A stretch of DNA of 64,000 bases from Hypomesus transpacificus (taxonomy: Eukaryota > Chordata > Actinopteri > Osmeriformes > Osmeridae): assembly GCF_021917145.1 (NCBI RefSeq), contig NC_061073.1:12065980-12129979 (forward strand), read 5' to 3'. Of the stretch, positions 34,990-63,214 are shown piece by piece. The translations under genes were made by a program, and so were the position numbers. The notes under the pieces are model-generated. The model did no database searches, was not told where the DNA came from, and saw only the letters and a program-made list of their open reading frames with translations. The stretch's first letter is position 1. Every line of letters begins with the position of its first letter.

Positions 34990-37900
34990 ATGGAGGCTGT
35001 AAAGATGGTTCTGAAGGTGACGTGGAGGTACCGGAGTCTCCTCATCATCCTCCTGACGCCCTCGCTCCTACTCCCTCTCCCTCTAGTCATTGGGACCAAG
35101 GTGAGAGAACACAACCAGACAAACACCTCACACACACACACGGTCAAAGCAGTAGTTTGGTATACCGTCATGATCCTTTTAATACACATGCTGGAATGTA
35201 CTTAATAAAGTGTAGTATGGATAGGGAGGCTTGGTACCCATAGATTTGGTTCAAATTGTTGCCCTATTTAACAAACAAATCCAAAATTTTGCCTGTGTCA
35301 TATGATAGTCAAGATTGAAAAAGTAGTATGTATTCTGTGTTTGTCAAATAAAAAAATTATCTGTATGAAAGCATATTATTAACTGAAATGACCTGGCAGA
35401 AAAAATCAATACAATGTATTATTCATACCTGTCCTTACATAAGTGACTGTTTAAGTAATCTATAGATTTAAACAAATTCTCCCTCTTTCCTCAAAAGCCT
35501 ACACTGACACACCGTAATCAAAACCACCACAATACCACAATATGTCTATTTCGACTTAACGGTACATAAATGGTGTGATCAACTTTTTAATGTACTTCTT
35601 TGCAACGCTAGTTCTATTATTGGGTTTTTCACCGACTGTACATTATCACTATGGAGTGAACGACCCATAGATAACATTATCAGCTGAAGCCACTGGTTAA
35701 AAAAAAAAAAAACTGGTATAATCTATCCATCATTATTTGTCCTACCCTGCTACAGGTGGCAGATTGTGCGTTTGTCCTCATGCTGATGGCCATTTACTGG
35801 CTGACGGAGGCCTTGCCCCTGTCGGCCACAGCCATGCTGCCTGCCCTTCTCTTCCCACTGTTCGGCATCTTGAAGTCTAACGAGGTGAATGGTTTACGAG
35901 AACGCCTCCTCACGACATCCCATTATCGTTTTTTGCAGACAATTGGCACAAAAGGCACTTTTTTCACTTTATCTCTCACCCACCCCCCCCCCCACCCCCA
36001 CCCCAAATACACACAATTTCAGGATGTATTTTTTTATGCAATATCGAAACAGAGCAGTAATTTTCTTTTTATTCATGCATCTGTTTTTCCCCCCCAAAAT
36101 GTCCTCTCCCATGTCAGGTGGCTAAAGTGTACTTCAAAGACTTCCACCTCCTGTTGATAGGGGTAATCTGCCTGGCCACGTCCATAGAGAAATGGGGCCT
36201 CCATCGAAGGATAGCTCTCAGGCTGGTCACCCTGGTGGGGGTCAACCCTGGATGGTAAGGTCTCCTTGGAAACGTTTTGTGACCTTTCTGAAATCATCAC
36301 TCATACACAAAATATTGGCACAAGTCAGTGCAGCATGTGAGACTGTGTGTGTGTGTTTGTGTTTGTCTGTGTGTGTCTTTTTGTGTTTGTGTCTGTGTGT
36401 GTACAGTATGTGTGTGGGGTTACATGATGTAATCCAGGTGAACTTTGAAGTATTCTCTTAGTTCCTATGTAATTGCAGTAGAAACAACAGTTTGTTTTGT
36501 GATAACCAATACAGACAAAGTTAACTGCTTTGGTTCGTAAGTGTCACTAATACTGATAAGCAAGGGACAAGGCCATGTCTAGCCATATATTTAAGACAAA
36601 GAATGGAATGAAGGATCAATATTATGAGAGAAGATAAGCCTAATGTAACCGAGCTGACTTGACTGAACTCACTCCTCAGAAAAATAACCTCAGTTTGAAT
36701 CCTTGCACAGGCAAGAAAGGGAGGAAGATATACTGATAAGCGAAGCAATGACACTTGTGACACTTTGTTACATAAATAATAGTTCAACCAAATATTTCCA
36801 ACTAAAAGTTCCACATGTTGATTTTCAGAAACCATTGTGATGTAAAGTCTATATACAATTTCTCCTAAATTAATACGCCGAAGCAAATTACATTTACGGC
36901 TACATTTTTCTGTTAAATTATTTTATTTTCTACAATGGTTTTACCACAGGAAAGCAGATTCAATTTTATAAACCAAACTTCAGGCATTTAAGAAGCCACC
37001 CTACCCATTCACCACTCACTGTTGTTTACATGAACGTGTTCAGCTTACTGACCTCATCCTGCCCCTTCCATGTCCCTTTCCCAGGCTTATGTTGGGCTTC
37101 ATGTCCGGCTGTGCCTTCCTCTCCATGTGGGTCAGCAACACCTCTGCCGTCGCCATGGTGATGCCCATTGTGGAAGCCGTCATCCAGCAGATCCTGAGGT
37201 CGGAGGAGGAGGCCGATGGACGGCGCTCCAGAGCTGCTACGGGCGTCAGCAACCTGGCCCTGCAGCTGGACGGTGGGTCTGACAAGCTCACAGACGGTCT
37301 CTTGGCTTTGGGTCACGGTGTCGTAGTGCTTGATACTTGTTTGGGAGAAATGACAGTGTTTAACTGTGTGACTTGTCGTTTTTTTGTTGGTTGTACTTTG
37401 TACCTCTAAACGTTATACATTCATTTTGTTTTTTAGAAATTATTGGGCAGAAGGAGAAAGAGGATATTATGAGGTACAGAAAAAAATGCAGTTTCCTTCT
37501 TTAAGATGAAAGATGGTTCAAAGTTACTTCTTAGTCTAAGTGATACAGCAATGTTATGCCACTGTCATGTTGTCTGTCCACAGTAGCCAAGTACAAGATC
37601 CAGAAGCTCAAGTGTACACTATTCCTGACAACGAAGTCCCCCCACGCAGAACTGTAAGTAGAAAATACAACCACAGAACAGTAACTACAACCTAAAAGCA
37701 ACATAGCACCAACTGGACAATATCACCATGCATTGGTTGTCATTAAAATACTAGTTATCGGTGAGAAATTATCCGTTGTTATAATGAGATTTATGATGTT
37801 GGGAGATTTTATTATTAGAATATTTGAACAAATTATTGTTAAAACCTGTATTAAATTGTCATGCTTTATAAACAATATTATTCTACATACAACAATTTCA

Positions 37901-40900
37901 GCTTTGGAATTCTAGAGGTCCCGACAGGCACTTCAAGGACCGTTTTATGACCCTTTCATTACATGACCTAAGGTCATCCCTCAGGTACCCGGAAGGAAAC
38001 AAGATAATATGATCTGCAAGGCTTTGTGCATCAGCATTGCCTATTCATCCAGCATGGGCGGGATCGCCACTTTACCCGGGACTTCCCCCAATCTCATCTT
38101 CTCAGAGTACATGACTCAGTAAGTTTTTTACTGAACTGTACCTTTAAAACCAGATGTGTGCTCGGAGTCGTGTGTGTGTGTTTGTGTGCGTGCAGACACT
38201 GTTGCCCTTAAGATTGATATAGAGTAAGACCAGAGATATATTTAGTTTGTAAAGTAAAATGCACTTAAAATAAAATGATACACTAAATTGATTCATCATC
38301 CATATTGTGCACTTGGATTTTTTGTAATGGGAGTTCTGTTTCAGGTTTTACCCAGACTGCGACCAGATCAACTTTGGAAACTGGCTCCTTCTCTGTGTCC
38401 CCATCAGTATCCTGATGCTGCTGTTGTCATGGATATGGCTGTACTGGCTGTTCATTGGCTCTGAGTGAGTGCACACTGCCTCAAGTCTCTTATGAGAATT
38501 ATCTGAAATATTTAAAGCCAATATTTATAGTTAAGGGTACAGCAAAAACATTGAGCTATCTACAGGTGAACGCCTTTGCTTCCTTGAGTGAACAATATAA
38601 TGTTAATAGATTACCATCATAGCAATTCATTATCCACGGCGTTCTCCTTGTTTAGGCATCATGTCTGTCCATTGTGTTTTGAAGAAGATTAGTTAATCAT
38701 TAGTGTTGGATGCTCGGAAATTGAACATTAGTTGTCTGATCACAATCAGTGAGGCAAATGTCCAAAATGCTATCTTTATTGTTTGTCAACTCTCTCTTTC
38801 TCACTCTCTCACTCTACCTCGGTCTATCTCTGTCTCTCTTCCTTTCTCACCCACACCTGCACACACAGTTTTAGGTCTTTGCTGCGCTGTGGAGGACAAC
38901 GGTCCGAGAGGGAGAAGGAAACAGGCCGCGTCATTCAGGAGGAGTATAATTCTCTGGGGCCTATTGGGTGAGACACCCGTTCTTTCTTGAGTGTTGGTGA
39001 CTTTTGAGATTGTGTTAATTATACATGGATTCATTTAGACAAACAATTCAAACAAACACACTACACGTGTGTTCTCTCTTCCCCCCGTTCCTAATCAGAC
39101 ATGACTGATTTCAAGATTAGTGGGGGGAAAACATTGTATAACCCCCAATGCCAGCACTACACATGCCCTGCTGCTAATTATTTATGCTCTGTGGTCTCTT
39201 GCGGTTCCTCCTGTCCGCACCTAGACCCACAGCCATGTTTGAGTCTATGGTTGAGTGTCTCCTTCTCCTGCTCCATCCAGTCCTCAGGAGGTGGTGACCC
39301 TGATCATCTTCGTGCTGATGGCTCTCCTGTGGTTCACCAGGAAGCCTGGCTTCATGCCTGGCTGGGCCAACCTCTTCCCTGAGTGAGTTTTTGCCATCAC
39401 TGGTACACCTGTTTGTTTTGCAATCTACACCCATTAACAACATTAAAGTCGGTATTGGACGAAAACAACCTGTTATCAGGATTCCTCATTAAAAGGGTTC
39501 CATTTTTAGTATTAGTATCATAATACCTGGCATTACCTATGGTTGATAGAAATCAAGGAAATCAAGCAGGATGTAAATTTGCTCTAAATTACATTACATT
39601 TACATTTAGTCATTTAGTAGACGCTCTTATCCGAGCAACTTACTCGTACAGGGACATTCCCCCAAGGCAAGTAGGGTGCCTTGCCCAAGGACACAACGTC
39701 ATTTGGCACGGCCGGGAATCAAACCAGCAACCTTCAGATTAATGGCCCGATTCCCTAACTGCTTAGCCATCTGACCCCCCACTGACTGACTTCTTCTGCA
39801 TTCACGCAGACATGCCGGCTACGCTACAGATGCAACCGCTGCCTTGCTGCTCGGCCTTCTCCTGTTTGTCATCCCAGCACATGGTCCATCCCCCAAGAAT
39901 TTTGGTAGCCATCTTTTCAAAAACCTAATAATATGAATGCATGCATTTAGCAGGTGATTTCAAGTATACATTCTATAATATATTCTAGTAGGATGTCAGG
40001 TATACCTAGTACAGAAGCAAACTTTAACAGGCCACTATTGTTTAGAACATTTAAGCTTCACAAGATACTGAGAAAGAAATCAATCCTTGTTTTTCCACTT
40101 AATTCTCCTGATATGGCTCCATGGCCTCCATGGTAATCAAATATAGTCTTAGAATGTATTTACAACATGGAATGTATTTACAACGGTTGCTGTACAGACT
40201 GTGGCAACACAACACAATACAGAATCGTATCTGTCTCCCTCCAGAGGCCATGATCACATGGAAGGAGTTCCAGGCTGTTATGCCATGGGAGGTGGCGCTG
40301 CTTGTTGGTGGAGGTTTTGCCTTGGCTGAGGGAACCCAGGTACAGTTTACCAGACCTTCATCATCTTTATCATGTTGTCTTTCCCTAGTAAGCTTTTAGA
40401 GCCTACTCCCTACATTATACACCTTTCCTAAAACCTCACATTATACCTTTACACTTTGTCTAGTCGCTCTGGATAAAAGCGTCTGCTAAATGATTAAATG
40501 TCTACACCCTCATCTTAAACTTCCCCTATACCCTACACTATACCTACACCTTCCCTAGACGTTACACCTCTCCTACACCCTGACAAACCCCTGTGGAAAT
40601 CAATTTCACAAGTGAAAGCAGGCAATGGATTTACGGGTCCAACTCCAGCTGAGATGTTAGGGCCGCAGATTCTATAAAAAAGCCTGACGTACATGTTGTT
40701 GACGTACATTAGCCAAAGAAACTTCAGTGCGCCAATGTACAAAAGGTTTTCCGAAACCGCCACACTTTTCGTTACTCATTAAGGCTAAGTCATTAGTATC
40801 CTGCTGGTGAGTTGCTAAGTAACATGGCACATGTTGTGTTCTCTGTGATTTACAGTATTAGTTTGAATGCAGAACAGTCTCTACGTGGATCCATTCAAAA

Positions 40901-42467
40901 CTGTGAAAGACAGGAAAACTAAACTGAGAGGGAGCTAAATCTTTACTGACTAAACTGCAAGCAGACTTGAAGTATGCTTGAAGAATGAATACAAATGATT
41001 TTTGCCGGTGTTCTAAAATTAATTTAAGGGTAGGGGGAGTACTTGTTCACACGGTCAACCTTTTTGAGCGAAACAATAAAGGGCAATGCATGCACAAACA
41101 AGTTCTCCGTTTAGGATTACAACTCCACAAAAGAAAAGGAGAAACCACAATGGCCACTGCCACTGGGTTTTCATTGTGTCCCATCTTCTTCGCGACTATC
41201 GGGGCCAGCTGATAAATTAAACTTTTACCGAATCCCGTAGGAAAGACGGCAAAAACTTATTTTCCATCGACAAATGCTTTGATTGCTTCTCTCTGTTTCT
41301 CTTTCAAAATTAATGCGCTGTCGATGTCTTCTAAAACAGACTTGATGGCAGAATCATAACATCCCAGATCTCCAGCGGTAGCCATGTTTGTTCAAAACAA
41401 ATTCAACTTAAGCGCTCTTTTGTGTCGTGGGTGATTACGTTACTGTTGATCATCTGTCCATCATCGTATAAAGCCCGCCCTGGCAATTTCATTGGTTCGC
41501 CCAGATTCTGGTTTTCTGTAGTTGGTCCCCAATACGAGACCCTCCAGACCCAACTTCCCGACCAAATTTTTTGGGGGGCGGGGAGAAGTTGGGCTGGCAG
41601 CCAGGCTAGTTCCCCATAGCCCCTTGCTTTAACTATTATTATTCCACGAGAACATTGGGGTATGCTAAATGGCAAAATATGTAATATGCAATTATTTAAG
41701 TTGTTCATGCAATTGAAGGGGAGTTCTAACATTGCCACCGGGGGCTATTAGACATCATTAGCCATATGAAATGAACATGGTGTTCATGGTGAATAAATTG
41801 TTGACAATGAAAATGACTCAGTACTGCAATAGGCACATAAACAAGGGTTGTAGATTGTAAATGGGGTATACTTAAAGGATGGGTTTTTTTGTTGCACAAA
41901 CAAAAACATATATCACCACATCAACAAAAATGTATGTGTTTTATTAAATGCCACCAGAGGCAATTAAGATAAAAGGTTGTACTTTGCAGTAAACAGGATG
42001 TTCTTTTCACAATATCTGTGTGTGCGTTCTGCAGGCTGAGGCAATCCAAGTGAACCCACTCTACATGCTGATACCCACAACCCTCTGCACGTCTTTCTCC
42101 TTCCTGCTTCCTGTGTCTAACCCATCCAATGCCATCGTGTTTGGCTATGGCCATCTTCGCACCATTGACATGGTGAGTATTGAGTGAGCAGTGCACATTT
42201 TAGTATAACTACTGTCACCCCATCACATTGCATAGAAGCATGTTGTAGCGACAGTCTAATGTAAATACATCATACACATGTAAAGGGTATTCTTCATGTT
42301 TTCCCTCCATTCGATGATTCTAGGTGAAGGCGGGGCTTGGCACAAACGTAATCGGTGTCCTTGTGGTGGTACTGGCTGTGACGACTTTGGGAGTACCCCT
42401 ATTTGGACTCAATACCTACCCTGACTGGGCGCCCATCTTACCTCCGTCCAACAGCACTGGCCTGTGA
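34990..42467 (+). CDS. slc13a1: Solute carrier 13 member 1 (sodium-sulfate cotransporter), apparently missing one exon
   Basis: NaS1-type transporters bring sulfate into epithelial cells with sodium. Fourteen plus-strand exons found: 34990-35100, 35756-35884, 36118-36254, 37085-37272, 37437-37473, 37584-37653, 37985-38118, 38345-38464, 38869-38967, 39281-39382, 39810-39904, 40245-40339, 42035-42172, 42324-42467 (TGA); 532 codons, human 595. Seen: N-terminal membrane segment (SLLIILLTPSLLLPLPLVI); VYFKDFHLLLIGVICLATS; first half-repeat signature WVSNTSAVAMVMP; variable cytosolic loop; GGIATLPGTSPNLIFSEY; LLVGGGFALAEG; NPLYMLIPTTLCTSFSFLL; NAIVFGYGHLRTIDM. The exon expected between 40339 and 42035, which carries the second half-repeat signature (SNPATIT-like), is not seen on either strand, though flanking phases (0/0) would still join in frame. 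All other exons keep frame and splice sites. Called SLC13A1 rather than SLC13A4 from synteny and closest remembered similarity. It may be a recent loss of function, a real variant, or an assembly error. Confidence 0.9.
39595..39778 (-). repeat. tRNA-derived SINE, near full length, reverse
   Basis: Reverse-oriented copy of the family at 13986-14160, in the slc13a1 intron before exon 39810-39904. On the plus strand the tail comes first (CATTTAGTCATTTAGTAGAC), then the body (GGTGCCTTGCCCAAGGACAC) and the tRNA-like head ending CTTAGCCATCTGAC. Confidence 0.88.
40461..40502 (+). repeat. SINE 3'-tail fragment
   Basis: Contains TCGCTCTGGATAAAAGCGTC then TGCTAAATGATTAAATGT, the tail of the SINE family without its head. 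It lies 120 bases into the interval where an slc13a1 exon is missing. Confidence 0.8.
41047..41385 (-). pseudogene. RecQ-like DNA helicase fragment with in-frame stop
   Basis: Minus strand from the ATG at 41385: about 42 codons (start MATAGDLGCYDSAIKS, then LKEKQREAIKAF), one TAA stop at 41259-41257, then VFAVFPTGFGKSLIYQL and AVAIVVSPF before the similarity fades. PTGFGKS is a Walker A motif; its placement after a KQREAI-type segment and before SPF (motif Ia region) matches RecQ family helicases. The stop falls where the family usually has a short polar residue before V-FAV-PTG. The rest of the helicase is absent, so it is broken. The upstream flank on this strand (41386-41640, CCAGGCTAG end, CCAATGAAATTGCC) resembles dispersed fish repeats, suggesting it came with an insertion. 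Family assignment is by eye only. Confidence 0.65.
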
Positions 42468-62600: not shown

Positions 62601-62962
62601 AATTGTGCCAGCACCTGCTGTTCATCCATGTTTAAATCAAATAAGAAGTGTTGTGATCGTGATGAAAATAGTATCACCTGCCTACACTGTAATCACAGGT
62701 GTGACTGTCCACAGGTTTTATGTTTGTGGTTCATTTGAATCTCACAGTGCATCCCTCTCTTTTCTCTTCTGACGTCCTTCCACACCACTTTCTTTTCAAT
62801 CTGCCATTCATACCCTTTCGCTCTTCTCCATAATTGTATTTCACCCCCTTTTTTTTGCCTCTCACACCATCGTCCCGTCTCCTCTCCCTCACCTCGTCCG
62901 TCACTTCCCCATATCTCTCCTGGCATCACAATCTCTTTTATCCTCTCCATTGTCTCAACTAC

Positions 62963-63004
<42 letters not shown>

Positions 63005-63214
63005 AACTGTCCTCATCCCTGTCATCCCCCTCCTCTTCTCCCGTTTTCTCCTTCTTCCCACTCATTGTTCACTCCTTTCTCTCCTTCTCTTCCCCCCCAG
63101 TTAAATAAGCAGCAGCTGCAGGCGGTGAAGGAGCGTTTCCAGTCCTTCCTCAATGGCGACACCCAGATCGTGGCGGACGAGGCTTTCTGCAACGCAGTGC
63201 GAAGCTACCACGAG
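44609..63214 (+). CDS. cadps2: Calcium-dependent secretion activator 2 (CAPS2), exons 1 and 2; gene continues past window
   Basis: CAPS proteins prime dense-core vesicles for calcium-triggered exocytosis in neurons and endocrine cells. Exon 1: 44609-44914 (102 codons, start [17 protein letters not shown] as in known CAPS proteins; acidic and lysine-rich linker; helix [17 protein letters not shown]; then [20 protein letters not shown] and TDMARRQQK). Exon 2: 63101-63214 (38 codons: [20 protein letters not shown], then [18 protein letters not shown]), phase 0 on both sides. These cover only the N-terminus of a protein of about 1,300 residues; C2, PH and MUN domains must lie beyond 64000. CADPS2 over CADPS1 rests on synteny with SLC13A1. 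Intron 1 is 18.2 kb. An in-frame ATG at 44474 could add 45 residues, but the annotated start matches the family. Confidence 0.95.
46478..46680. mobile_element. Non-autonomous TIR element (hAT-like fish MITE)
   Basis: Left end: CAGCGTTTCTTAACCCTGTC then CTCAGGGAACCCCTGTCCTG and CATGTTTTGG. Right end, inverted: TTAAACATGCAGGACAAGGG then TTCCCTGAGGACAAG. The interior has the ATTTGAATCAGGTGTGTTGG motif common to this type. The outermost right end appears decayed. No coding capacity. Confidence 0.75.
49442..49800 (+). mobile_element. 3' fragment of a CR1/L2/Rex1-type LINE
   Basis: One frame gives [19 protein letters not shown], then [15 protein letters not shown]. This matches the usual C-terminal end of non-LTR retrotransposon ORF2 (RAFSVAAPKLWNSLP...LASFKSLLKTHLF pattern). 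The rest of the reverse transcriptase is missing and the upstream frame is low in similarity, so it is a 5'-truncated dead copy. The clade cannot be settled by eye. Confidence 0.7.
57313..57565 (+). repeat. Minisatellite, about 8 copies of a 31-34 bp unit
   Basis: Tandem units with core GCTGCCCTGCTAGTAAAC followed by GTAGTGGGGTATAT variants. Core starts are spaced 31-34 bases. Copies differ at a few positions (CGTAG/CATAG, GGGGT/GGCGT/GGGAT), so the array is diverged but clear. It lies in cadps2 intron 1 with no other feature near. Confidence 0.95.
58512..58535 (+). repeat. Poly-G run (24)
   Basis: Twenty-four G bases in cadps2 intron 1, in a region otherwise rich in GT and CA repeats. Confidence 0.97.
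62968..63002 (+). repeat. (CT)n microsatellite upstream of cadps2 exon 2
   Basis: Perfect CT repeat inside a long pyrimidine-rich stretch (about 62755-63097) that runs up to the exon 2 acceptor. Confidence 0.95.

Follow-up and report, generated by a model that had tools for sequence, protein, structure and literature searches.

A probable recent deletion of one slc13a1 exon into a transposon in the Hypomesus transpacificus assembly

The slc13a1 gene of the fish Hypomesus transpacificus lacks one coding exon in the genome assembly, which raises the question of whether this exon was deleted from the genome, was dropped by the assembler or is present in an unrecognised form. The gene lies in a stretch of 64,000 nt, called here the window, which is C14:12065980-12129979 within an assembly of 437 Mb and 376 contigs. 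A working Na+/sulfate cotransporter of the DASS fold is expected to carry a second SN motif in HPout together with Na2-site residues, and these are absent from the window slc13a1. The DNA around the missing exon points to an answer: we consider it probable that slc13a1 carries a recent genomic deletion reaching into a transposon and encodes, as a result, a non-transporting protein.

The gene model and the absent exon

On the + strand, slc13a1 was modelled at 34990-42467 with 14 coding exons of compatible phases and 13 introns, all GT-AG, giving a spliced frame of 1593 nt and a product of 530 residues. No stop, frameshift or splice-site lesion was found in the remaining 14 exons, over the 1593 nt and the 13 introns. 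An earlier reading of this DNA, the first-pass annotation, had described 14 exons with intact splice sites and phases, and the same model was obtained here. Human SLC13A1 has 15 exons. The dog gene also has 15 (PMC3530542). The exons are given below from the gene model, with retained residues from the alignment to human NaS1 and their roles from PMC10980263.

34990..35100, + strand, exon 1, with the ATG at 34990
35756..35884, + strand, exon 2
36118..36254, + strand, exon 3
37085..37272, + strand, exon 4, first SNT motif retained (human S139, N140, T141)
37437..37473, + strand, exon 5
37584..37653, + strand, exon 6
37985..38118, + strand, exon 7, loop L5, human G258, T259 and S260 retained
38345..38464, + strand, exon 8
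38875..38967, + strand, exon 9
39281..39382, + strand, exon 10
39810..39904, + strand, exon 11
40245..40339, + strand, exon 12, phase-0 end at ...FALAEGTQ, donor GTACAG intact
42035..42172, + strand, the exon after exon 12 (ancestral 14 of 15), phase-0 start, loop L10, human N533 retained
42324..42467, + strand, last exon, stop TGA

Among PDB structures, the top match of the product was human SLC13A1/NaS1 (E 2.5e-160), and in pieces of the flanking exons 42/52 residues are identical to NaS1 compared to 29-32/52 for NaDC1, NaCT and NaDC3, SLC13A4 lying outside this comparison. Judging by this match and the identity of the flanking pieces, the window gene is taken to be the slc13a1/NaS1 orthologue. 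It has S139, N140, T141, G258, T259, S260 and N533 in common with human NaS1 (PDB 8y5u, 8w6h), a set that is assigned to sulfate contact, Na1 contact or proposed selectivity, S139, T141, T259 and S260 being sulfate-site residues and N533 being proposed for selectivity (PMC10980263). The numbering of our alignment sets the window Asn on human N533, in agreement with that paper. Two loop positions differ from human NaS1. In L5 (exon 37985-38118) the fish gene has P at T257, where 5/5 aligned fish paralogues have T like human NaS1, and in L10 (exon 42035-42172) it has S at P535, where 6/6 aligned fish paralogues have P like human NaS1.

In the alignment to PDB 8y5u, human NaS1 E451-L504 (54 residues) was unmatched between ...FALAEGTQ (ending at 40339) and AEAIQVNPLYM (starting at 42035), and the window frame passes directly from human E450 to A505 at the border of exon 12 and the next exon. 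The remaining gaps are exons 5, 6 and 9, which lay outside that query, and 8 residues that human NaS1 has in addition where exons 11 and 12 meet. The first-pass annotation had claimed that an exon of about 54 residues with an SNPATIT motif is lacking at this place, that it bears the second SN motif of the sodium/substrate site, and that its phase 0/0 flanks keep the frame open without it; the alignment and the stop-free frame of 530 residues bear out all three. The absent segment runs from transmembrane segment 9 (TM9) into HPout and includes TEVASNPATIT, the second SN motif, while its last part is assigned to TM10 in PMC11803892. With it are lost human A488 and N490 of the Na2 region, and NaDC1 T471, T474 and N476, which coordinate Na2 (PMC10980263), align inside it.

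We searched for the exon by tblastn, phmmer and a four-row hidden Markov model (HMM), and nothing credible was found in 40340-42034 or anywhere in the window on either strand, the top HMM score inside 40340-42034 being 2.7 bits (E 0.66). As a positive control, the same tblastn recovered the flanking exons with E values of 4.5e-14 and 2.9e-23. A tblastn row at 62944-63048 (E 0.017) was rejected as a serine/leucine-rich repeat in which the motif is missing. Megablast of the interval against plasmids and an Rfam scan of the window at gathering threshold gave no matches, and the window contains 0 undetermined bases (N). Searching the whole assembly with the human exon as protein query, a search whose sensitivity rests on its recovery of six paralogues, gave 7 rows at E<=10, namely these six SLC13 paralogues and one row judged to be chance, and no slc13a1 exon. 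The chance row (C2:1756211; E 0.41; 41% over 39 residues) misses the SNPATIT motif, has in-frame stops on both sides and has no credible slc13 exon adjacent; its E of 5e-7 when it is compared alone with its own 3-kb locus was taken as bias of prior selection. The first-pass annotation had seen no exon on either strand of the 1.7-kb interval and had proposed a translated search of interval and assembly. Its reading held in the interval, and the assembly yielded only the six paralogues as credible matches. An oversight in that reading is ruled out by the search of both strands, of the full window and of the full assembly.

Comparison at the protein level, against human and paralogue sequences, could still miss an exon that is strongly diverged, split by introns or relocated. 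Sensitivity was gauged with randomly decayed exon copies, inserted by script into the slc13a1 intron in 20 runs per level. Whole-exon copies scored above 12 bits in 20/20 runs at 90, 70 and 50% identity, in 11/20 at 40% (9/20 missed) and in 0/20 at 30% (20/20 missed), and the exon split as five pieces of 18-27 residues at 70% identity exceeded 8 bits in 19 or 20/20 runs. Copies at 50% identity or above were thereby recovered in at least 19/20 trials, as were the 70% pieces, while the flanking exons hold 68% and 80% identity to human and the assembly-wide search returned paralogues only. An exon present but unrecognised is, considering these results, extremely unlikely.

The six paralogues were recovered with E values from 1.1e-11 to 7.7e-6 and 42-58% identity, and by compared pieces two are nearest NaCT, three nearest NaDC1 and one nearest NaDC3. 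All six have the homologous exon at the homologous place, whole and directly bounded by AG and GT in 5/6. Among the seven SLC13 genes seen in the assembly, slc13a1 is the exception. In the sixth paralogue (C74) the homologous exon is frame-shifted close to its start; this gene was rejected as a second slc13a1, as it is NaCT-like by comparison. The locus is a slc13a5-like gene (C74:86000-95999, L009) on a 309-kb contig, with its frame shift in the same exon that slc13a1 lacks and, within the 10 kb fetched, pieces matching exons 10 onward only; it may be either a decaying or a mis-sequenced copy. The rows obtained with PF00939 and with the NaS1 exon included nothing recognisable as an SLC13A4 (NaS2)-like gene, no search being aimed at SLC13A4. 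With slc13a1 broken, the fish may be without any SLC13-type sulfate carrier.

The transposon and the junction

The first-pass annotation was right that the exon is missing from the interval, and it had overlooked the transposon and the junction found there:

40340..40916, + strand, presumed remaining 5' part of ancestral intron 12 (assembly DNA search)
40916..40917, no strand, putative deletion junction, intron joined to transposon interior (copy comparison)
40917..41608, - strand, truncated copy of a young high-copy DNA transposon, ~880 bp full-length elsewhere, right terminus CAGGCTA intact (assembly DNA search, copy comparison)
41609..41617, + strand, right 9-bp flank GTTCCCCAT beside the transposon (window search)
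41609..42034, + strand, what presumably remains of ancestral intron 13 on its 3' side, single copy in the assembly search

The DNA search of the interval against the assembly, in which 40 of 2253 first-look candidates were scored, gave the self match, at least 39 other places with 95-97% identity whose match begins at interval base 570-590 and ends at about 1270, and at least 14 shorter rows. The window copy starts at interval base 578, within this range of starts. Nineteen of the 39 other places, chosen for likeness to the window copy, were fetched, and 18/19 of them reach a left terminus after a further 176-200 bp (mostly 195), for a total length of 861-890. The ends are TAGCCTG (AAGCCTG in one) on the left and CAGGCTA on the right in 18/19, and 17/18 full copies are flanked by a 9-bp duplication that has one mismatch or none (14 exact, 3 with one mismatch; L038 fails). 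The inverted ends and the target duplication in most copies identify the element as a putative DNA transposon with terminal inverted repeats. A helicase-like frame lies inside the window copy on the minus strand, at about 41134-41385, and is broken by a stop at 41257-41259.

The window copy keeps its right end at 41608, and both its left end and the second flank copy are absent. On the left side of the junction, essentially single-copy intron (no other copy among the 40/519 candidates scored, a 40-bp repeat core at 40462-40501 aside) runs straight into the element, entering it ~195 bp inside the point where full copies terminate. Within the window the 9-mer GTTCCCCAT, the presumed target, is seen at 41609 and nowhere else, which fits a deletion of the left duplication. 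Neither flank turned up a second time in the assembly, the left flank again among 40/519 scored candidates, and therefore no intact haplotype was seen there.

These features are compatible with the following order of events. A ~880-bp DNA transposon would have inserted into intron 13, downstream of exon 13, and a single deletion would then have run from within intron 12, over exon 13, to ~195 bp inside the transposon, removing exon 13 (54 residues) together with the left end of the transposon and its left target duplication. One event would, by economy, lie behind both losses, and the deletion is younger than the insertion. With the splice sites of exons 12 and 14 spared and both borders in phase 0, the mRNA would join exon 12 to exon 14 in frame, and the product would be a protein of 530 residues without human E451-L504, unable to transport sulfate. 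Exon deletions associated with transposons, in which an exon is lost through a deletion that has one of its ends in a mobile element, are a known class of event; within it, the fish element is distinguished by its TAGCCTG/CAGGCTA ends, its 9-bp duplications and its broken helicase-like frame.

The first-pass annotation had offered a loss, a changed function or an assembly fault. The truncated transposon favours a real, recent loss-of-function deletion. In the case of a fault, the genome would have exon 13, and the assembler would have dropped the intron 12 piece, the exon and the left transposon end at the repeat. Such a fault finds support in a junction lying inside a very high-copy element and in the rest of slc13a1, which is intact and without a surplus of unusual changes, like a working gene. 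A misjoin at a repeat is, however, expected to leave a whole or chimeric element, whereas here non-repeat DNA meets the element interior, 195 bp in; moreover, none of the 376 contigs was found to hold a stray piece carrying the exon or one of the flanks, within the left-flank scope given above, and the window has no N. A collapse of two flanking transposon copies is also disfavoured by the truncated left end. We hold a fault to be unlikely, though of some weight, and a real deletion, fixed or segregating, to be very probable.

Several points weigh against the proposed deletion. The presence of the deletion in the animal is presumed from the assembly sequence; the position of exon 13, between the junction and the transposon end now missing, is presumed as the most economical map; high-copy repeats are sites of assembly error; and an intact, unrelaxed remaining gene is equally predicted by an assembly fault. 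In addition, one fetched copy (L035, C8:10984645-10985318) is without its left end and is joined to a different sequence, which shows that truncation of the element occurs elsewhere.

Other observations concern the repeats. The 40-bp core at 40462-40501 occurs again at 39602-39640 and in at least 40 further assembly rows (40 of 519 candidates scored); there is no evidence for it as a breakpoint. At C9:16594303-16596221, a stretch of 2 kb carries several copies or pieces of this transposon in a single orientation, and the 9-bp duplication of copy L023 is itself a stretch occurring within the transposon.

Age of the loss

Of 686 bases compared, the window transposon copy shows private substitutions at 6 and departs from the majority of the 19 copies at 16, both figures being rough as the copies were picked for likeness to it. 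Under a neutral drift model with assumed indel rates, the probability of no lesion in the remaining gene is 0.003-0.016 at 2% divergence and 0.05-0.13 at 1%. In a relative-rate comparison over pieces of ten exons (exons 1, 5, 6 and 9 unused), 148 columns were invariant in at least 4 aligned fish paralogues. Both the window gene and human NaS1 keep 100 of these columns and both depart at 22, while 13 departures are unique to the window gene and 13 to human NaS1. The equal number of unique departures gives no sign of long relaxation in the window slc13a1. A long-standing pseudogene is not what is observed, since the other exons have no stops, frameshifts or broken splice sites. Therefore, the loss looks recent, given the intact frame without excess of unusual changes; it is recent, or it is not real.

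Predicted function and known systems

In NaDC1, the N476A substitution markedly lowers the citrate current (PMC10980263), and N476 aligns to NaS1 N490, inside the lost exon. The human NaS1 variants G448D and L516P, which bracket the lost segment, eliminate sulfate uptake though the proteins are membrane-located (PMC11803892). By analogy, the loss of 54 residues with the Na2 half-site should abolish sulfate transport. In the inward/inward structure of NaS1, sodium density is absent at the Na2 place, and Na2 occupancy differs between conformations (PMC10980263); the argument for loss of function leans, therefore, no less on the removal of a core membrane segment than on that of the ion site. The deleted slc13a1 is most likely a null allele, fixed or polymorphic.

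The exon-less gene might instead be kept by selection, its short protein acting otherwise, for example by damping uptake through normal protomers or by Na2-free transport. The open frame, the intact splice sites, the kept Na1 and sulfate-contact residues and the relative-rate test without decay would agree with this, as would the fact that NaS1 and NaDC1 are homodimers via their scaffold domains (PMC10980263). The loss looks, however, so recent that an intact frame requires no selection, and single substitutions beside the lost part abolish transport, as cited above. We regard maintenance by selection as very unlikely, and likewise a fixed gene whose 530-residue product is made and useful, whether it carries sulfate despite lacking the Na2/HPout half-site or regulates other SLC13 protomers in a dominant manner.

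Loss of SLC13A1 is known by deletion in the dog and by point changes in people. The Miniature Poodle deletion is likewise a germline loss of SLC13A1 coding exons; the allele is described as having lost its function completely, and affected dogs have reduced serum sulfate. It covers ~130 kb and 14/15 exons (PMC3530542), whereas in the fish one in-frame exon is lost and the breakpoint lies in a transposon. Human biallelic loss-of-function variants also remove NaS1 function, G448D and L516P flanking the segment, but they are point changes (PMC11803892). New here are the fish instance, the unusual one-exon in-frame form and the located breakpoint. No report of exon loss in fish slc13a1 was found in the titles or abstract openings of the papers listed by the literature searches, supplements being outside these searches.

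The role of slc13a1 in fish is debated: the gene is expressed in the kidney of freshwater eel, its expression was undetected in freshwater pufferfish (PMC8098666), and in salmon it was detected in the intestine only (PMC8495805). If the deletion is real in the animal, the species or some of its individuals very recently lost NaS1-type sulfate uptake with the gene otherwise intact, and would be a natural slc13a1 knockout in fish, as well as a clean case of a mobile element bordering an exon-deleting event. Annotation would in this case display an open, in-frame yet probably dead transporter.

Open reading frames upstream and downstream of slc13a1 resemble, by eye, IQUB and CADPS2, in what we take to be the order IQUB - SLC13A1 - CADPS2.

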